Positions 7,336 through 24,383 of a DNA stretch of 64,000 bases are shown here, in pieces. Source of the stretch: Balneolaceae bacterium (GTDB lineage Bacteria; Bacteroidota; Rhodothermia; Balneolales; Balneolaceae). The notes under the pieces were generated by a model. It saw only the letters and a list, made by a program, of their open reading frames with translations. It made no database searches and had not been told where the DNA came from. Location of the stretch: NCBI GenBank assembly GCA_034521495.1, contig JAXHMK010000009.1, positions 365,001 through 429,000 of the forward strand. Direction: 5' to 3'. How positions within the stretch are numbered: position 1 is the first letter of the stretch; each line of letters begins with the position of its first letter. The position numbers and the translations under genes are program-made.

Positions 7336-8901
7336 TTATTGCAGAATATATGCCTTAGCCACTTCCTCATACTTTTCAACCTGTTCATCAATCCAGGCCT
7401 GATCCTTATCCATTTCATTAGCCATCAATTTTGCTACTTCAGGAGCCATCTCTACACTGGCTTGTGCATCGAGAAGTAAGGCCCGGGTTCTGCGAGCGAG
7501 AACATCTTCCACTGTCATAGCCATTTCGTTTCGAACACCCCAAACAACTTCAGCTTTCAGGTAGGGCAGACGTTCGTGAAGTGGTTCACCCAGCTCTTTA
7601 TTTTCTTTGACGAGCTTGTTGATTTCGATACGGTCTGAACCGTAATGATGGAGTGGATCATCGGGATCTATATTCTTAAGCCAGCCGTGAATTCGCAGGT
7701 TTTCTGTAACACATTCCTGAACATTCAATCCTGCAACTGTTGCTGCCTGATCTACCGTATCTTGTGCCATTTTACGATAGGTGGTCCATTTACCACCTGC
7801 AATCGTTACCAGGCCCGATTCAGAAATCATCAGGGAATGATCTCTTGATATCGATGATGTATCCTTTCCATCCCCGGCTTTCACCAGAGGGCGTAGTCCT
7901 GCAAAGACACTTCGAACATCTTTGCGTGTTGGATTTCCCGTTAAATACTGGGTGGCATGTTTTAGTATAAAATCAATCTCTTCTTCCTGGGCTTTGGGTT
8001 CAAGTGTTGGAGCATCTACGGGTGTATCTGTAGTTCCTACAACAAGTTTTCCGTTCCAGGGCACAGCAAATAAAACGCGTCCGTCATCTGTATGAGGAAC
8101 CATGATAGCCGATTCTCCCGGTGAAAACTTTTTATCGATAACTAAGTGAACACCCTGGCTTGGTGCAATAATGGGTTTCTTCTCAGGATTGTCCATTTGT
8201 AAAATGTTATCCGTAAAAACTCCGGTAGCATTTACAACAACACGTCCGTTAATATCAAATGTATCGCCGGATAACTGATCTTCTACCGTTACCCCATCTA
8301 CCATATTATTTGATTTTAACAGTCCCGTTACTTTCAGGTAATTCAGCATGGTAGCATCATGATCGGCAGCTGTTTGAACAAGGTTGATAGCCATGCGCGA
8401 ATCATCAAACTGACCGTCGTAATAGATTACACCGCCTCGTAATCCCTCACGTTCAAGTGTTGGCAGATGTTCAATCGTATCCTCAAGGGATAGATTTTTT
8501 GATGGCCCCAACCCAAGTTTACCGGCCAGCATATCATACACTTTCATGCCAACACCATAAAAAGGACCTTCCCACCAATCGTAATTTGGAACAATAAACG
8601 ATTGATTGTGAACAAGATGAGGAGCGTTTTGAATCAGTAAACCACGCTCCCGAAGTGCCTCAAGTACCAAAGAAACATTTCCCTGTTGAAGATACCGAAC
8701 ACCGCCATGCACAAGTTTTGTAGAGCGACTCGAAGTTCCCTTAGAAAAATCATGCTGTTCCAGGAGTAAGGTACTGTAACCTCTGGTTGCAGAATCAACG
8801 GCAACTCCGAGTCCTGTTGCACCACCGCCAATAATAATTACATCAAAATAACCCGCCTTTTCTTTGGCGGTTTTTAGCATTTCTGATCTGTTCAATAGCA
8901 T
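7336..8901 (-). CDS. glpD: Glycerol-3-phosphate dehydrogenase, FAD-dependent
   Basis: 521 residues. The FAD-binding GGGATGLG motif is at residues 25-32, followed by TSSRSTKLVHGGVRYL, a hallmark of GlpD, then the NATGVFTD and GTTDTP segments and a C-terminal helical domain (DAC_C type). Role: oxidation of sn-glycerol 3-phosphate to dihydroxyacetone phosphate, passing electrons to quinone at the inner face of the cytoplasmic membrane. It lies downstream of glpK in the same direction with about 280 bp of repeat-filled spacer, and together they form a glycerol catabolic unit. No glycerol facilitator gene is in the window. Confidence 0.93.
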   Translation of the reverse strand: MLLNRSEMLKTAKEKAGYFDVIIIGGGATGLGVAVDSATRGYSTLLLEQHDFSKGTSSRSTKLVHGGVRYLQQGNVSLVLEALRERGLLIQNAPHLVHNQSFIVPNYDWWEGPFYGVGMKVYDMLAGKLGLGPSKNLSLEDTIEHLPTLEREGLRGGVIYYDGQFDDSRMAINLVQTAADHDATMLNYLKVTGLLKSNNMVDGVTVEDQLSGDTFDINGRVVVNATGVFTDNILQMDNPEKKPIIAPSQGVHLVIDKKFSPGESAIMVPHTDDGRVLFAVPWNGKLVVGTTDTPVDAPTLEPKAQEEEIDFILKHATQYLTGNPTRKDVRSVFAGLRPLVKAGDGKDTSSISRDHSLMISESGLVTIAGGKWTTYRKMAQDTVDQAATVAGLNVQECVTENLRIHGWLKNIDPDDPLHHYGSDRIEINKLVKENKELGEPLHERLPYLKAEVVWGVRNEMAMTVEDVLARRTRALLLDAQASVEMAPEVAKLMANEMDKDQAWIDEQVEKYEEVAKAYILQ

Positions 8902-9181
8902 TTTTTAAATATTTAAGAGTAAAATTATCATCAAAAATTTTCACATCTGATTCCCAAGCTCCTGCTTGGGAATCAATGAGTTGGAAGCTCTGCTTCCGTT
9001 AAGCGGAGCTTCGGCATGAGAAAATTAATCTCCCTTTCAAGGAAGTCAGAGTTTTTCAATTGTTCTTGAAAAACTCAGAGGGGTGTTTGGGTCAACGGAA
9101 CATCCCCCGAGTTCATTCGCTACCCCGAAGGGATGCCTTGGGCAAACGCTCATTTTACTTTCCCCATTCAAAGGAGAAGTT
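8902..9181. repeat. glpK-glpD spacer with several hairpins
   Basis: About 280 bp without a gene. It contains an 11-bp stem (GATTCCCAAGC and complement) at 8949-8974 around TCCT, a GGAAGC/GCTTCC stem at 8983-8997, and GAGTTTTTCA/TGAAAAACTC at 9049-9076. A stretch at about 9110-9175 contains GAGTTCATTCGCT and AAACGCTCATTT, words that recur in the same order after nagB at 17378-17415. It reads as a mosaic of small palindromic repeats and may reduce read-through from glpK into glpD. Confidence 0.6.
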
Positions 9182-10693
9182 CTACATATCAAAATCCAAT
9201 TTCTCAGACCAGGCCCGCGTAGCTTTAAGTGCTTTTTTCCATCCATCAATCAATTTTCCTGCTTTCTGTTTATCCATCTCAGCATCAAAACGCTGATCTT
9301 CCCGCCATTGTTCATTAATTTCTTCATGATCTTTCCAGTACCCCACGGCAAGACCTGCCAGGTAGGCTGCTCCAAGTGCAGTTGTCTCCAGGATTTTTGG
9401 ACGAATGACAGGTGCCTGCAAAATATCGGCCTGGAACTGCATCAACAAGTTGTTGGCCGTGGCTCCACCATCAACCCGAAGCTCTTTTATTTCAATTCCG
9501 GAATCAGACTGCATCGCTTTCAAAACATCCATCGCCTGGTAGGCAATTCCTTCGAGAGCAGCCCGGGCAATGTGACCTGAATTTGAGCCGCGTGTCAACC
9601 CCACCATGGTACCTCGGGCATGCTGATCCCAATGAGGTGCACCAAGTCCGGCAAATGCAGGAACAAGATACACGCCGTCATTATCATCTACGGATTTGGC
9701 AAGTTTTTCTACATCGGCAGATTTTCGAATCAATCCAAGTTCATCCCGAAGCCATTGTACCACCGCACCGGCTATAAAAATACTTCCTTCAAGGGCGTAT
9801 TCAACCTTTCCATCAATCTCCCAGGCAACGGTTGTAAGAAGATTATTTTTCGATTTGATAGGTTTCTTACCGGTGTTCATCATCATAAAACATCCGGTTC
9901 CGTATGTGTTTTTCACCATCCCTTTTTCAATACAACGCTGACCAAAAAGGGCTGCCTGCTGATCACCCGCAATCCCGGCAATCGGCACCTCAGCATTTAA
10001 TACAGTGGAGTTGGTATTGGCATACACTTCGCTCGACGATTTTACTTCAGGAAGAAGACTTTTGGGAATATCAAGTAACTCAAGGAGTTCAGTATCCCAC
10101 TCCATATCGTTGATATTATAGATCATAGTTCGGGATGCGTTGGTTACATCCGTTACATGAGTTTTGCCGTTTGTAAAGTTCCAGATCAGCCAGGTGTCCA
10201 TTGTACCGAATGCCAGCTCACCATCCTCGGCTCGCTCCCGAACTCCATCAACGTTATCAAGTATCCATTTAATTTTAGTACCAGAAAAGTAGGAGTCGAT
10301 CACCAACCCCGTTTTTTCCTGGATCATGTCTGCATAGCCATCGCTTTTTAGTTGGTCACAATAATCAGAAGTTCGCCGATCCTGCCAAACAATGGCATTG
10401 TACACAGGTTTGCCGGTTTTTCGGTCCCATATAAGCGTGGTTTCACGTTGATTTGTAATTCCAATTCCGGCAACATTTGAACCATCAATCCCTGCACCTG
10501 TGATCGCTTCTGTGGCAACACCGGCCTGGGTCGACCAAATCTCTTGTCCGTCGTGTTCTACCCATCCGGCTTTGGGATAGATCTGTTTGAACTCTTTCTG
10601 AGCGGTGGATACAATTTCACCTTTGTGATTGAATACAATGGCCCTTGAGCTGGTGGTTCCCTGATCGAGAGCTAAAATAAACTGTGTTGCCAT
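9182..10693 (-). CDS. glpK: Glycerol kinase
   Basis: 503 residues, the usual length. [11 protein letters not shown] near the N-terminus is the phosphate-binding loop of FGGY kinases. Later come [36 protein letters not shown] and [19 protein letters not shown], all typical of GlpK. The start at 10693 is preferred over an in-frame ATG 43 codons upstream, because [13 protein letters not shown] matches known N-termini and CCAGGAG sits about 8 bp before it, one of the few good Shine-Dalgarno sites here. Role: ATP-dependent phosphorylation of glycerol to sn-glycerol 3-phosphate, the substrate of GlpD encoded next. A LacI regulator gene is divergent upstream with a 187-bp shared region. Confidence 0.95.
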
Positions 10694-10880
10694 GTTATAA
10701 ACTCCTGGTTGGTTAGCGATATTTAAACTATAAATGCCAATTTGTGAAACCGCTTCCTGAAAATCAATAATACTGTCAGTTGATTTATGGGACTTTGAAA
10801 GATTAGAGAAAATTATTTCCAATTATAAATTTGTTTTAGTAATTATTGTTAAGCCTAACCTATATCAAAAAAGACAAATT

Positions 10881-17435: not shown

Positions 17436-19376
17436 CTAATCAAGAAAATGATACCGCACAAAACCCTCGATCGCTTCATATTCGGCCAATCCGAGGTCAT
17501 CATAAACCTCAGCTGTTCCGCGGTTTCGGTCTTCGGAGCGTTGCCAAAATTCTCTGGTATCTGATCCTGGAAAAAGCGGCCGGTCTTTTTGGGATTGATG
17601 CTTGAAGATGGCCCGGCGTTTTCGTTTCAACTCCTGCGGACTCAGTGGAACGGCCATTTCAATTTCGTTCACATCCCATTCCTGCCATGCACCGCGGTAG
17701 AGCCACACCCAGCAATCTTTCGCCCAGTTATCGTTTTTTACGATGTCGAGTGCTTCAAAAATGGCTTTCAGGCAAACACGATGGGTTCCGTGCGGATCAG
17801 ACAGATCACCGGCAGCATAGATTTGATGTGGTTTTACTTCCCGAAGAAGGTCAACGGTAATCTGAACATCTTCATCGGAAATTGGCTTTTTCTTCACGCG
17901 GCCGGTTTCATAAAATGGCATCTCCATGAAGTGCATATTTTCATCAGGAACACCGCAATAGCGTCCGCCGGCTTTCGCTTCACCGCGCCGGATCAAGCCT
18001 TTTATCTTTTTCACTTCCGGCGAATCAACCTGGCCGGGTTTTTTGGATTTCAGGAACTCGTTAATTTTTCGAAATAATTTGTCTGCCTTTTGATCTTTCA
18101 TATCAAATGCTTCGGCGTAATCGAGTACGAAATCAGCAAAACGAACCACGTCATCATCAAAAACCGCAATATTTCCGGATGTTTGATAGGCAATGTGAAC
18201 CTCGTGTCCGTGATCGACCAGCCTGATCAGCGTTCCTCCCATGGAGATCACGTCGTCATCGGGATGGGGACTAAAAATGAGTGCACGTTTAGGAAATGGT
18301 TCCCTTCTCTCGGGACGGTATTTGTCATCTTCGTTTGGCTTTCCACCCGGCCAGCCGGTGATAGTATGCTGCAACTCATTGAAAACCTTAATATTGATAT
18401 TGTAGGCAGGTCCCTGTGTGGTAATCAGGTCGGCCATGCCGTTTTCGTTGTAGTTTTCGTCAGTTAGTTTGAGTATCGGTTTGTCCAGTTTCCGGCAAAG
18501 CCAAACTACAGCTTTTCGAATCAGATTATCGTCCCAATCACAGGGAGAAAGCAGCCATGGTGTATTGATCCGCATCAATTTTTCAGAAGCGGCGGTATCA
18601 AGTACTATAGCTGTATTCTCATGCTCCTGCAGGTAGGTGGCGGGAATATTTTCCCTTATTTCACCTTCCACAGTTTCTTTGATAATGCTCGCCTTGCCTT
18701 CGCCCCATGCCATCAGGATGATTTTTTTCGATTTCAGGATGGTTCCAACTCCCATTGTAATAGCCCGGCGCGGCACATATTCTTCTCCAAAGAAATCACT
18801 TGCGGCATCCTTCCGGGTGATCTTGTCCAAAGTAATCAGGCGTGTGGGAGAATCAGGGCGTGATCCTGGTTCGTTAAAGCCAATGTGTCCGGTTCGTCCA
18901 ATTCCCAAAAGCTGAATGTCAATGCCTCCGGCTGCATCGATTTTGGCTTCGTATTTGTCACAATATTTATAAATATCTTCTTCAGGGATTGTTCCGTCTG
19001 GAATGTGAACCTGGTCTTCGGGAATATCAATCGAATTAAAAAGATGCTCGTGCATAAAACGAACGTAACTTTGCAGCGAGTCCGGTTCTATGGGATAATA
19101 TTCATCAAGATTAAATGTAATTACATTTTTAAAACTCAGTCCTTCTTCTTCGTGTAACCGAACTAATTCATCGTAAACGGCAACGGGTGTAGAACCGGTT
19201 GCAAGCCCCAAAACGGCATTTTCATTCTTTTTTTCTTTTTCTCTGATGAGTGAAGCAATTTCATGTGCAATGGCTGTGGAAGCCTCAGAACTGTTTTTAT
19301 AAATAACAGTTGGAATATTTTCGTAATAGGTGAGGCGTTTATTAATAGAATTTAACTTCTGCTGTAAGCTTTCCAT
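17436..19376 (-). CDS. nagB: Glucosamine-6-phosphate deaminase fused to a PIG-L/LmbE-type deacetylase domain
   Basis: 646 residues, over twice the length of plain NagB. Residues about 1-270 are NagB: GLATGSTPVAVYDEL, FNLDEYYPIEPDSLQSY and GHIGFNEPGSRPDS carry the active-site Asp, His and Glu. From about residue 365 a second domain begins with IFSPHPDDDVISMGG, and near residue 527 comes DPHGTHR. Together these give the zinc-binding and catalytic residues of PIG-L/LmbE N-deacetylases. Role: GlcN-6-P to fructose 6-phosphate plus ammonia. The second domain may remove acetyl from a GlcNAc compound. Such fusions are known in Bacteroidota. It is divergent from the ROK kinase with a LacI-type operator between, and no nagA is present. 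Confidence 0.9.
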   Translation of the reverse strand: MESLQQKLNSINKRLTYYENIPTVIYKNSSEASTAIAHEIASLIREKEKKNENAVLGLATGSTPVAVYDELVRLHEEEGLSFKNVITFNLDEYYPIEPDSLQSYVRFMHEHLFNSIDIPEDQVHIPDGTIPEEDIYKYCDKYEAKIDAAGGIDIQLLGIGRTGHIGFNEPGSRPDSPTRLITLDKITRKDAASDFFGEEYVPRRAITMGVGTILKSKKIILMAWGEGKASIIKETVEGEIRENIPATYLQEHENTAIVLDTAASEKLMRINTPWLLSPCDWDDNLIRKAVVWLCRKLDKPILKLTDENYNENGMADLITTQGPAYNINIKVFNELQHTITGWPGGKPNEDDKYRPERREPFPKRALIFSPHPDDDVISMGGTLIRLVDHGHEVHIAYQTSGNIAVFDDDVVRFADFVLDYAEAFDMKDQKADKLFRKINEFLKSKKPGQVDSPEVKKIKGLIRRGEAKAGGRYCGVPDENMHFMEMPFYETGRVKKKPISDEDVQITVDLLREVKPHQIYAAGDLSDPHGTHRVCLKAIFEALDIVKNDNWAKDCWVWLYRGAWQEWDVNEIEMAVPLSPQELKRKRRAIFKHQSQKDRPLFPGSDTREFWQRSEDRNRGTAEVYDDLGLAEYEAIEGFVRYHFLD

Positions 19377-19630: not shown

Positions 19631-20608
19631 ATGGAGTTAGTTGCGGGAATTGATTTAGGAGGTACAGATACAAAATTTGGTTTAGTGAGTCGCGAGGGTA
19701 AATTATTTGCCTATCAATCTATACCAACAAATGTAGATATTGGATACGAGCTATTCTTTGAACAGTTGAGTGATTCGGTACAGGATATGGTGGAAGCACT
19801 TGGGCCCGGTTATAAACTGGTTGGTGTAAGTGTTGGAGCACCTACGGGCAGCCAGAAAAATGGTACGATCGATAACGCCTCAAATTTAAGCTGGCCAAGA
19901 AAGCTGCCGGTGGCCAATATACTATCGGCAAATTTTAATCTGCCTGTTTCTGTCTCCAACGATGCCAATGCGGCGGCTGTGGGAGAAATGCTTTTTGGCG
20001 TGGCAAAGCATAAAAAGAATTTTCTCTGTGTGACTCTTGGCACCGGCTTGGGATGCGGAATAGTTGTGGACGGAGATTTAGTACTCGGCTCACGCGGACA
20101 TGCCGGAGAACTGGGACACGTAACAATTTCAGGTAATGCAAGAAAATGTGGTTGTGGCCGGAAAGGATGTTTGGAAACATATGCCTCTGCTACCGGAATT
20201 TTAAGAACAGCAAAGGAACTGATAGCGATCGAAGAATATCCAAATTCTATTTTACAATTCTCTGAGAATGGATCTTTTACGGCTAAAAATATTACTAAAG
20301 CTGCACAAGAGGGGGATGAACTGGCACTGCGGGCTTTTGAAATAACCGGCCGGTATTTGGGAAAAACCCTGGCAAATACAGTTGCTTTGTTAAATCCTGA
20401 ACTTATTGTTCTTACCGGGGGATTATCGCGTTCTAAAGAGTTGATACTGGAACCAACACAGAGATATATGGAAGAAAATCTCCTTGATATTTACAAGGGA
20501 ACAGTAGAACTGAAACTCTCCGAAATAAGTGGTAAGAAAACAGCTATACTTGGTACCGCCGCTTTTATGTGGTTGAAACTGGACAGCCTTAGCAAACAGA
20601 CCGTATAG
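19631..20608 (+). CDS. ROK-family sugar kinase
   Basis: 325 residues. GIDLGGTDTKFGLV near the N-terminus is the ATP phosphate loop. SNDANAAAVGE and TLGTGLGCGIVVDG follow, then GHAGELGHVT with the ROK signature His, and the zinc cluster CGCGRKGC at about residues 173-180. Role: phosphorylation of a hexose with ATP, in this context most probably GlcNAc to GlcNAc-6-P, although glucokinase activity is equally typical of the family. It is the first rightward gene after the operator, followed 62 bp later by the hexosaminidase gene. Confidence 0.88.
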   Translation: MELVAGIDLGGTDTKFGLVSREGKLFAYQSIPTNVDIGYELFFEQLSDSVQDMVEALGPGYKLVGVSVGAPTGSQKNGTIDNASNLSWPRKLPVANILSANFNLPVSVSNDANAAAVGEMLFGVAKHKKNFLCVTLGTGLGCGIVVDGDLVLGSRGHAGELGHVTISGNARKCGCGRKGCLETYASATGILRTAKELIAIEEYPNSILQFSENGSFTAKNITKAAQEGDELALRAFEITGRYLGKTLANTVALLNPELIVLTGGLSRSKELILEPTQRYMEENLLDIYKGTVELKLSEISGKKTAILGTAAFMWLKLDSLSKQTV

Positions 20609-20670: not shown

Positions 20671-23259
20671 ATGAATTTCACATTAACAAAAGCATACCTG
20701 TTTTTTACAACTCTGACTCTTCTTTTAATTGCGGGTTGTAGCTCGCAGCAAGAGAATGATGATTCCCAATATTCTCTTTCCAAGGAGATTAATCATTCTC
20801 CAATTGAGATTACATGGAACCTGATCTCAAATTTCGAGGAGAATAATCAACTCCGCGCTTCACTTGCATTTCGTAACACAGGAAGTGAAACATTCACTCC
20901 TGCCGGGTGGACACTCTACCTGAATTCAATCCGTGTTTTGGATGCTGAAAGCTTTTTACCGGAGTTTGAAGTAACGCATATTAGCGGGGATTTCTTTAAG
21001 CTTGAACCTACCGATTCGTTTAACCCGATTCCGGCCGGAGAAGAATTTGTAAAGGAGTACAAAGCACAATTTCATGCCATCAAAAAAACCGATGCTCCAC
21101 AGGGATTCTATTTTGTATATGATGACCGAATTGAAGAGGTGACTGAAGTTTCGGTTGAACCATTTGTGGGAGAAGAGCAGGTGAATCGGAACCAGGGCGA
21201 TAATCTTGAGATTCCAACGGCAGGTAGCCGATACCGTGAAAATGAACAACTCACTACACTAACACCCGATCAGGTAAGTAAAATCACTCCAACCCCGTCA
21301 TCCTTAGAAATGGGGGATGGCAGTTATGAATTGACGAATGGAATTACAATTAGCTACGCACAGGATGTTTTAGAAGAAGCAGAATATTTGAGTAGCCTTT
21401 TATCTGAAGAGTACAACATTGAAAATACGGTTGAACAGCTGAACGGTGAGTGGAACGGATCAGGAATTTTATTGAATCTTGATCCGGCTGTAGATGAGAA
21501 CGAAGAGGCATATTCTCTCCAAATCACTGATGATGGAATTGAGTTATCATCATCGGGGAATGCTGGAATATTTTATGCTATTCAGAGTCTCCGGTCGCTC
21601 ATATCAAACCGGGATAGTGGCGATATGGAACTGGCAGCGGTTCAAATATTCGATCAGCCCGGTTTTGATTATCGCGGAATGCATCTCGATGTAGCCCGAA
21701 ATTTTCAAGACAAAGAAAGTGTATTGCGTCTCCTGGAAGTGATGGGAATGTACAAGCTTAACAAATTTCACTTTCACCTGACGGATGACGAAGGCTGGCG
21801 GTTGGCCATTGACGAACTGCCTGAGCTGACAGAGGTTGGCGGACGACGCGGCCACACAGAAACCGAAGAACATTTCCTCGCTCCATCGTATGGATCAGGA
21901 CCGGATCCTACACCGGGAGAATCGTTTGGAAGCGGCTGGTATTCTCGAGATGAATATATCGAGATTTTGCAATTTGCTGGTCAGCGGCACATTGAAGTGA
22001 TCCCCGAAATTGACGTTCCCGGTCATGCCCGTGCTGCCATTAAAGGGATGGAAGTTCGGTTTAATCGCCTTTCTGAATTTGGAGAATCGGAGCAGGCTGA
22101 GATGTATCGCTTGGCCGATCCTGCAGATGAATCGGAATATATGTCTGTTCAGAATTTTGATGATAACGTGATGAATGTCTGCCGGGAATCTACCTATAAT
22201 TTTATGGGACTGATTTTTGACGAGGTGATCGCTATGCATGAAGAAGCGGGGGTCCCGTTGAACATGATTCATGTTGGAGGGGATGAGGTTCCCGAAGGGG
22301 CTTGGACAGAGTCACCTGCTTGCGATCTGTATATGGAGGAGCATTCTATTGATAAAGCCGCAGACCTGTTTGGACACTTTTTTACCAGATTAGAATCAAT
22401 GCTTGAGGAGCGCGGTTTGCAGATGGCCGGATGGGAGGAAGTGGGTCTCGATGAAGATCATAGTGGCCCCAAAGAAGATGCTGAATACAAGGAAAACGTT
22501 GTCCCATATGTATGGTCGAGTATCTGGGGATCAGGACGGGAAGATTATGCTTACATGCTTGCGAATGCCGGGTATAATGTTGTGATGTCAAACGCATCAA
22601 ACCTCTACCTGGATATGGCCTACAATAAATCGTGGCAGGAACCGGGTTTTTACTGGGCAGCTATGTTCGACACGAAGGATACCTACTCTTTCATTCCTTA
22701 CGATCTCTACAAAAATGCCGAGCATGATAATTACGGAAACCCGGTCGATCCAAGCCAGTATGATGATGCTATTCAGTTGAGCGAAACGGGCAGAAGTAAC
22801 ATTTTAGGAATCCAGGGACAGCTTTGGTCTGAAACGGTTAATGAACCTCAGCGATGGGAATATATGGTTCTGCCGCGCTTGCTCGGGCTTGCTGAACGGG
22901 CATGGGTTGGAAATCCCTCTTGGGGAGAGATGGAAAATCTGACTCAACTTCGGTCTGAACGCGATGCCGCATGGAATGAATTCGCAAATCGCGTGGGGCA
23001 GTACGAGCTTGACAGGCTCGATAATATTTTTAATGATATAAACTACAGATTACCGGTACCGGGCGCCGTAATTGAAGATGGTGTTCTCATGGTTAATAGT
23101 GCTTATCCAGGACTTGAAATTCGGTATGAAATTAATGGAACCCCGAATTCAGATTCCCCCATATATCAGGGTCCCGTAGAGATCAATGAAGGAGATTCAG
23201 TTACGATCTCAATATTCAATTCTGCAGGAAGATCAAGCCGGAAAGTTTCAGTTCAGTAA
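20671..23259 (+). CDS. Beta-N-acetylhexosaminidase (GH20), lipoprotein
   Basis: 862 residues. A lipoprotein signal ends in LLIAGC with the lipidated Cys at about residue 23. Then comes an N-terminal carbohydrate-binding domain of hexosaminidases (NLISNFEENNQLRASLAFRN). A GH20b alpha/beta domain precedes the GH20 barrel (FDYRGMHLDVARNFQ; KFHFHLTDDEGWRLAID). The catalytic Asp-Glu pair is in HVGGDEVPEG near residues 534-543. A C-terminal chitobiase-type domain follows. Role: release of terminal GlcNAc or GalNAc from chitin oligomers, glycans or peptidoglycan fragments in the periplasm or at the cell surface. With the adjacent kinase and NagB it makes a GlcNAc utilisation path. Confidence 0.93.
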   Translation: MNFTLTKAYLFFTTLTLLLIAGCSSQQENDDSQYSLSKEINHSPIEITWNLISNFEENNQLRASLAFRNTGSETFTPAGWTLYLNSIRVLDAESFLPEFEVTHISGDFFKLEPTDSFNPIPAGEEFVKEYKAQFHAIKKTDAPQGFYFVYDDRIEEVTEVSVEPFVGEEQVNRNQGDNLEIPTAGSRYRENEQLTTLTPDQVSKITPTPSSLEMGDGSYELTNGITISYAQDVLEEAEYLSSLLSEEYNIENTVEQLNGEWNGSGILLNLDPAVDENEEAYSLQITDDGIELSSSGNAGIFYAIQSLRSLISNRDSGDMELAAVQIFDQPGFDYRGMHLDVARNFQDKESVLRLLEVMGMYKLNKFHFHLTDDEGWRLAIDELPELTEVGGRRGHTETEEHFLAPSYGSGPDPTPGESFGSGWYSRDEYIEILQFAGQRHIEVIPEIDVPGHARAAIKGMEVRFNRLSEFGESEQAEMYRLADPADESEYMSVQNFDDNVMNVCRESTYNFMGLIFDEVIAMHEEAGVPLNMIHVGGDEVPEGAWTESPACDLYMEEHSIDKAADLFGHFFTRLESMLEERGLQMAGWEEVGLDEDHSGPKEDAEYKENVVPYVWSSIWGSGREDYAYMLANAGYNVVMSNASNLYLDMAYNKSWQEPGFYWAAMFDTKDTYSFIPYDLYKNAEHDNYGNPVDPSQYDDAIQLSETGRSNILGIQGQLWSETVNEPQRWEYMVLPRLLGLAERAWVGNPSWGEMENLTQLRSERDAAWNEFANRVGQYELDRLDNIFNDINYRLPVPGAVIEDGVLMVNSAYPGLEIRYEINGTPNSDSPIYQGPVEINEGDSVTISIFNSAGRSSRKVSVQ

Positions 23260-23342
23260 CTGTTGCTGATTTTTGAGCAACTAATTTGATATTATTTCAG
23301 TTAGTAAAGCAGATACTGTAGTTCTGATTGCCGCAGAGGTTA

Positions 23343-23357
23343 ACTCAATATTTGAGT
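23343..23357. promoter_or_regulatory. Small dyad just before the lacI start
   Basis: ACTCAATATTTGAGT, with 6-bp arms and a 3-base centre, ends 3 bp before the ATG at 23361. It covers the place of a ribosome-binding site and could be an autoregulatory site or an RNA hairpin. It lacks the central CG of the other LacI-type sites here. Confidence 0.25.
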
Positions 23358-23360
23358 GGA

Positions 23361-24383
23361 ATGGAAAGGTTAAACATCGATAAAGTTGCCAAGCTTGCTC
23401 ATGTGTCGAGGTCTGTCGTATCGAGAGTGCTGAATAACCATCCCAATGTAAGTGATGAAGCCCGTAAACGGGTAATGAAAGTAGTTGAAGAGTATAATTA
23501 CCGCCCCAATTCGGTAGCGCGAAGTTTGGCCACAAGCAGTACGCATCAGATTGGAGTCTTGTCGGGCATTTTTGGGGAAGAAAGTCTTGGGAACGGTTAT
23601 TGGACCCTTCTCTATCTTGGGATTTTCGAGGAGTGTATTCGGCATGGATATTATGTACGGCTTTCCTTTTACGGTGCTGATATGAAGAAAGAACTTCATG
23701 ATCTGATACTAAATGAACACCATCTCGACGGTGTAATTTGCCTCAACGAAGAGGTGACTGAGTTTACGTTAAATACGTTTGCAGATGCTGACATCCCATT
23801 GGTTTTGGTAGGTCACAATCCCAAATATCCCGAAATATCCTCCGTGGATGTTGATAACTATGAAGCGGCATATAAAGCCACAGATCATCTTGTGCAGTTG
23901 GGGCATAAAAATATCGGTGGCATCTTTGGCGATCAAAATGTTCAGGAAACTGAACACCGGATGAGAGGCTACCGCGACGCTCTGGAAAATGGGGGAATTA
24001 AACCAAAAGATAATTATACAGTTGTAGGAAGTTATTCGCAGCACGACGGGCACGATACGATGGAGGAGTGGATTACGGACTACCCCGATATGACAGCAGT
24101 TTTCTGTGCAAGTGATACACTGGCAATGGGCGCCCTGTTGGCACTTTATGAAAATAATATCCCTGTACCGGAGAAATTTTCAGTGGTTGGCTTCGATGGT
24201 CTTCCGATAGCTAAATATATGATTCCTCCGCTCACCACCATTGCACAACCCACCTATGGAAAAGGAGAAAAAGCAGCACATCTTTTAATTGAACAGATTA
24301 AAAACAGAGATGCAGAGGTAACTCATGCCAGCCTCAAACCGGAACTACTGGTGCGTAAAAGTACATCGCGGTTCTCTAAATGA
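23361..24383 (+). CDS. LacI-family transcriptional regulator, probable GlcNAc cluster repressor
   Basis: 340 residues from the ATG at 23361 (MERLNIDKVAKLAHVSRSVVSRVLNN). A TTG eleven codons upstream is possible but would add a tail not usual for the family. The HTH is at residues 4-24. The sugar-binding part shows HQIGVLSGIFGEE, DGVICLNEEV, HLVQLGHKNIGGI, FCASDTLAMGAL and VVGFDGLP. Role: ligand-responsive repressor. It is the last gene of the GlcNAc cluster, 101 bp after the hexosaminidase, and the dyad at 19463-19478 is its most likely target. Its stop lies 6 bp from the convergent crotonase gene. Confidence 0.88.
   Translation: MERLNIDKVAKLAHVSRSVVSRVLNNHPNVSDEARKRVMKVVEEYNYRPNSVARSLATSSTHQIGVLSGIFGEESLGNGYWTLLYLGIFEECIRHGYYVRLSFYGADMKKELHDLILNEHHLDGVICLNEEVTEFTLNTFADADIPLVLVGHNPKYPEISSVDVDNYEAAYKATDHLVQLGHKNIGGIFGDQNVQETEHRMRGYRDALENGGIKPKDNYTVVGSYSQHDGHDTMEEWITDYPDMTAVFCASDTLAMGALLALYENNIPVPEKFSVVGFDGLPIAKYMIPPLTTIAQPTYGKGEKAAHLLIEQIKNRDAEVTHASLKPELLVRKSTSRFSK

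Follow-up and report, generated by a model that had tools for sequence, protein, structure and literature searches.

Introduction

Deacetylases of the NagA/AgaA family (TIGR00221) have an amidohydrolase fold with no sequence relation to PIG-L proteins, and catalyse the same reaction, conversion of GlcNAc-6-P to GlcN-6-P, that we propose below for a PIG-L domain. In E. coli, AgaA can substitute for NagA (PMC3668189). The PIG-L enzymes closest to our subject, diacetylchitobiose deacetylases (3we7, 4xm1 and 8bgo) and BshB (6p2t), act on GlcNAc-containing small molecules, and the monomeric B. subtilis-type NagB (2bkv) is the nearest described relative of the deaminase to which this domain is fused. 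The combination of both domains is already catalogued as NF002557 (PRK02122, 'glucosamine-6-phosphate deaminase-like protein'), a family whose name covers the deaminase alone and gives no role for the PIG-L half. The NagB of the Flavobacterium johnsoniae chitin locus (Fjoh_4557) is probably a member. This NagB could not be expressed, its deletion left growth on chitin unaffected, with redundant copies present, and a separate NagA has been proposed for that organism (PMC5127042). Literature searches for a link between NagB-PIG-L/LmbE proteins and GlcNAc-6-P deacetylation found no assay of the fusion family; as far as this literature shows, the protein family is known and its C-terminal half has apparently not been described as a NagA replacement.

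Results

A NagB-PIG-L fusion with two intact active sites

The window (the whole 64,000-nt stretch of Balneolaceae DNA that was analysed) contains an ATG-started ORF on the minus strand (17436..19376) encoding a protein of 646 aa, which matched NF002557 over its full length (NCBIfam, 1094 bits against a cut-off of 384, profile positions 19-652 of 653). Its NagB (GlcN-6-P deaminase) domain occupies residues 29-254 (18615..19292, minus strand), as defined by Pfam Glucosamine_iso (PF01182, E 2e-23, above the gathering score) and by alignment to 2bkv and others, and the protein also exceeded the TIGR00502 (NagB) cut-off (251.4 versus 236.9 bits). The PIG-L domain spans residues 361-646 (17439..18296, minus strand), based on a Pfam match at residues 366-542 (PF02585, E 5e-18, 66.4 bits versus a gathering score of 28.2) together with the match of the structural model to BshB and diacetylchitobiose deacetylase (Dac). 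Alignment and column counts placed Asp91, His164 and Glu169 at the positions of E. coli NagB Asp72, His143 and Glu148, while the position of E. coli Asp141 is held by Thr162 and by Asn in the best PDB match, 2bkv, indicating that the deaminase site is of the B. subtilis rather than the E. coli kind. Reading of the C-terminal motifs identified HPDDD at residues 371-375 (18252..18266, minus strand), which supplies PIG-L metal ligands and the general base, and HGTH at residues 529-532 (17781..17792, minus strand), which supplies a metal ligand and the catalytic His. The initial annotation, made from the sequence alone, had described a NagB-PIG-L fusion with both active sites intact and a full PIG-L metal motif in the C-terminal domain, and the ORF, the Pfam domains and the catalytic residues of both halves bore this out. 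The two-domain architecture is that of a named and widespread family, common in Bacteroidota, and not a one-off fusion.

An AlphaFold model of the full fusion, built with 24 sequences (mean pLDDT 78.9, pTM 0.62), aligned with 2bkv through its N half (Z 37.0, rmsd 1.1, 242 residues, 42% identity), so the fold and catalytic residues of this NagB are shared and the fusion differs by adding the C-terminal PIG-L domain. Residues 361-646 of the same model were aligned by VIA with BshB 6p2t (Z 21.8, rmsd 2.7, 207 residues) and with the Pyrococcus horikoshii diacetylchitobiose deacetylase (PhDac 3wl3, Z 21.1). When the C-terminal part was modelled alone, the result was poorer (pLDDT 67.9); Foldseek then ranked diacetylchitobiose deacetylases first (E 6e-9), and VIA-align left them tied with BshB. 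The closest solved relatives of the C-domain are thus diacetylchitobiose deacetylases and BshB, with which it shares the fold and the HPDDx/HxxH metal site, and we count this in favour of the deacetylase role proposed below. The fusion is set apart from them by an identity of only ~20-24%, an extra helical segment after HPDDD (~residues 407-473) and the attached NagB.

Gene neighbourhood and proposed pathway

Divergent from the fusion lies a gene for a ROK-family sugar kinase (19631..20608, plus strand; PF00480), whose best NCBIfam match was ROK_glcA_fam (224 bits, below the cut-off of 260) and which scored 102 bits against an N-acetylglucosamine kinase model that needs 380; it may act on GlcNAc or on glucose/GlcN. 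It is followed by genes for an exported GH20 beta-N-acetylhexosaminidase with a lipoprotein-like start (20671..23259, plus strand; PF00728, E 2.5e-96, with PF02838, PF03173 and PF03174) and a LacI-family regulator (23328..24383, plus strand; PF00356/PF13377), which belongs to the same divergent block kept in relatives. The Pfam and NCBIfam matches of these neighbours confirmed the earlier observation of a cluster with a hexosaminidase, a kinase and a GlcN-6-P deaminase but no nagA. Many Balneolaceae without NagA likewise have ROK kinase, GH20 and LacI genes on the divergent side of the fusion, an arrangement that we count in favour of NagA replacement. A GPH/sucrose-type MFS transporter often accompanies the block in Balneolaceae relatives. 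Genes for glycerol kinase and glycerol-3-phosphate dehydrogenase were also observed near the GlcNAc block (window 7336-10822), and they directly follow it in several other Balneolaceae (loci L070-L077).

With a little more confidence than doubt, we propose that the fusion is a catabolic, bifunctional GlcNAc-6-P deacetylase/GlcN-6-P deaminase. GH20 would free GlcNAc, a transporter would bring it in and the ROK kinase would turn it into GlcNAc-6-P; the metal-dependent PIG-L half would then release acetate to give GlcN-6-P, which the NagB half would convert to fructose-6-P and ammonia. The PIG-L half would thereby be a non-orthologous replacement of NagA, joined in one protein to the enzyme that acts next. 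Comparative genomics suggests this chemistry, the order of the reactions and the 6-phosphate form of the substrate, and the fusion may be of benefit to the cell, perhaps with channelling between the two halves.

The host genome encodes one short NagA-family protein, a candidate AgaA

A genome-wide search for nagA, which the initial annotation had named as a check, returned one NagA-family gene (C9:166250-167155), 216 kb from the fusion. This finding counts against NagA replacement, but the protein is of a short type (333 aa, without the first ~50 profile positions) and scored 188-189 bits, below the TIGR00221 cut-off of 225.65. It could be aligned with E. coli NagA over 277 residues and contains HLEGP, GH, THLxN and SDA motifs. 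The gene is flanked on one side by genes for an AGE epimerase and a NagB-like protein, and on the other, on the opposite strand, by genes resembling those for tagatose-bisphosphate aldolase (GatY), 1-phosphofructokinase/tagatose-6-P kinase and AgaS (345 bits to the AgaS family, below the curated cut-off of 529). Because of its short type and this AgaS/tagatose-type cluster, the gene looks like agaA, and the cluster looks like a better fit to a GalNAc/GalN (aga-type) route than to a GlcNAc route. Since AgaA can replace NagA in E. coli, the host genome alone cannot decide whether the fusion has taken over the step. Eight further PIG-L proteins in this genome also count against the replacement. 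Short NagA-like proteins (~330 aa), some of them encoded together with a NagB-like protein and a transporter of the SSS type, were observed at Balneolaceae loci L059-L067 and L001 and are candidates for an AgaA-type subfamily below the TIGR00221 cut-off.

Fusion-bearing genomes are depleted of NagA

We surveyed the fusion and NagA (called at E<=1e-25) in 392 Bacteroidota genomes, each at least 95% complete and searched for GH20 as well, and in Rhodohalobacter, the genus of the host as judged from a match to R. sulfatireducens at 93% identity. The fusion was present and NagA absent in 15/19 Rhodohalobacter genomes. Within the host's order, 65/84 genomes carried the fusion and 11 carried NagA, all 11 of them together with the fusion, and none of the 45 fusion-bearing genomes in the rest of the host's class had NagA. 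The Bacteroidota sample contained the fusion in 173 genomes, NagA in 78 and both in 48. With the reservation that these co-occurrence counts and p values ignore kinship among phylogenetically correlated genomes, NagA was absent from 125/173 fusion genomes versus 13/40 genomes with stand-alone NagB only (Fisher p 5e-6; by genus p 0.002), corresponding to a NagA frequency of 28% versus 68% (27/40), and GH20 occurred in 88/125 NagA-less genomes with the fusion versus 42/189 without it (p 2e-17).

Replacement of NagA by the C-domain would predict an unfused C-domain in the NagA-less genomes that have only stand-alone NagB. Such a domain was found in G270 alone, where the halves are adjacent genes 23 bp apart (NagB of 263 aa and PIG-L of 286 aa), an arrangement that counts in favour of replacement; the 12 other genomes had neither NagA nor the C-domain, indicating that NagB without NagA arises for other reasons too. 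The co-occurrence of NagA with the fusion in 48/173 fusion genomes counts against replacement, as do two Flavobacterium-like genomes (L127 and L128) with NagA immediately upstream of a fusion whose PIG-L site is intact, and two more (L136 and L259) in which NagA lies close to the fusion. NagA beside a fusion with an intact PIG-L site would be strange if both did the same job.

The PIG-L site outlasts the NagB site

Both active sites were kept in 132 of the 151 distinct fusion sequences, and HPDDD/HGTH was near-invariant, being retained in nearly all of them. In twelve sequences the catalytic Asp of NagB is replaced by A, S, N or Y, and in five of these the catalytic His is gone as well, while HPDDD/HGTH is unchanged. 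The twelve group into a clade from the host's class, f13 (support 0.987), and a second clade from elsewhere in Bacteroidota that comprises G279, G286, G364, G366 and a Porphyromonadaceae MAG (support 1.0). All 11 searched genomes with a dead NagB half also encode a separate NagB whose catalytic residues are intact, versus 45/162 other fusion genomes, a contrast (p 2e-6) that nevertheless rests on only two independent events. In G366, 42 bp separate this NagB gene from the fusion downstream of it. The ratio of N-half to C-half divergence was higher in the dead-NagB clades than in their live relatives (1.23 versus 0.92 and 1.47 versus 1.09), indicating a faster N half. NagA was absent from the f13 genomes and from G279 and G286, and present in G364 and G366. 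GH20 was found in none of the f13 genomes searched, so feeding by a hexosaminidase is not universal, and the sugar may come from recycling in this clade.

The opposite loss was confined to a second NagB-PIG-L paralogue. In the host genome (L022:8158-10065, C10:90163-92058) this paralogue reads HPADD, with the catalytic base lost, and HPADD occurs in the paralogue of nine genomes of the host's genus, in some of them combined with PNGTY or HGTY; the NagB site of these paralogues is intact. All nine genomes carry a main fusion copy besides, and the motifs are kept in those main copies that were read; G042, which has the paralogue type alone, retains HPDDD/HGTH. Faster evolution of the PIG-L half was not seen in HPADD compared with HPDDD paralogues (N/C ratio 0.80 versus 0.82). 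In sum, it is the PIG-L site that selection keeps, and a live NagB is still encoded in every genome checked, which is the pattern expected if PIG-L makes the substrate of NagB.

After the host paralogue come genes for a stand-alone PIG-L protein that is exported (L022:10118-11020), for a ROK kinase and for a protein of 887 aa. Some other genomes have the paralogue near SusC and a set of sigma-factor and anti-sigma-like genes. Tandem NagA paralogues were observed in G364 (L259), near a fusion with a dead NagB half and an intact PIG-L half, and in G366 (L263).

Discussion

The initial annotation had suggested that one protein may turn GlcNAc-6-P into fructose 6-phosphate and so replace NagA. The phyletic pattern, the gene context and the decoupling of the two active sites speak for this, whereas the NagA-family gene of the host and the NagA genes beside some intact fusions speak against it; support for the proposal grew over the analysis and it is plausible from comparative sequence evidence, although the host, having a NagA-family gene, is not the cleanest case. 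Our doubt slightly exceeds our confidence for the broader possibility that much of the phylum Bacteroidota relies on the NF002557 protein as its main GlcNAc-6-P deacetylase. It would be a PIG-L enzyme in the place of NagA, usually joined to the enzyme of the following step and reduced in certain lineages to a deacetylase with a dead 'deaminase' half.

The main rival explanation is that the PIG-L half deacetylates unphosphorylated GlcNAc or a chitobiose-type compound, after which the ROK kinase would phosphorylate GlcN and NagB would finish the route, with NagA still bypassed. Both sequence comparison and Foldseek place diacetylchitobiose deacetylases, of which the archaeal ones act in this way, closest among solved structures. 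The neighbouring kinase gets its best score as a ROK of the glucokinase type and a poor one as a GlcNAc kinase, and such a substrate would account for the coexistence with NagA in some operons. We still regard this as unlikely, since BshB scores equal to Dac in the structural alignment, and the use of a 6-phosphate by the fusion partner, together with the NagB directly upstream in G366, suggests that the PIG-L half yields GlcN-6-P directly. The operons of some Flavobacterium and other Bacteroidota that combine the fusion with NagA, and clade f13, which keeps the PIG-L site without GH20, would also fit a PIG-L half whose substrate is a different N-acetyl amino sugar phosphate, such as ManNAc-6-P or a MurNAc-derived compound, that arises when envelope or glycans are recycled. 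The PIG-L half would then supply NagB with GlcN-6-P or a relative and leave GlcNAc-6-P to NagA/AgaA or another enzyme. This seems rather improbable given that no other GlcNAc-6-P deacetylase was recognised in most NagA-less, hexosaminidase-bearing fusion genomes.

For the host only, the NagA-family protein could perform the GlcNAc-6-P step and leave the PIG-L half an unrelated or minor role, as its motif-bearing alignment to E. coli NagA and the replacement of NagA by AgaA in E. coli would allow; its short type and AgaS/tagatose-type cluster, and the lack of the gene in 15/19 same-genus genomes that retain the fusion, make this quite improbable. We give very little credence to the PIG-L half being a deacetylase of the bacillithiol (BshB) type or a structural remnant: it has the fold common to BshB, but its catalytic residues are near-invariant and outlast the NagB site, and family-wide loss of the PIG-L motif was not seen among the 151 distinct fusion sequences. 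The fusion scored 25.2 bits against TIGR04001 (BshB1), which has a cut-off of 182.5, and the host genome encodes a separate, dedicated BshB1 (281.6 bits), so bacillithiol does not require the fusion and a BshB role was rejected.

Many Bacteroidota feed on chitin, mucin and peptidoglycan sugars, and most fusion carriers in our sample were without a textbook GlcNAc-6-P deacetylase. Should the PIG-L half carry out the deacetylation, a gap in amino-sugar catabolism would be filled, a large protein family would acquire the function it lacks, and the deaminase name that current annotation gives to members whose NagB half is dead would prove wrong.

A distant family of ~790 aa, combining a NagB-like with a PIG-L-like domain, was also observed in seven genomes (G137, G143, G150, G215, G247, G374 and G409; loci L265-L272). 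Its members carry APHHDD and DPEG...THY motifs, and four of its genomes have neither NagA nor an NF002557 fusion.
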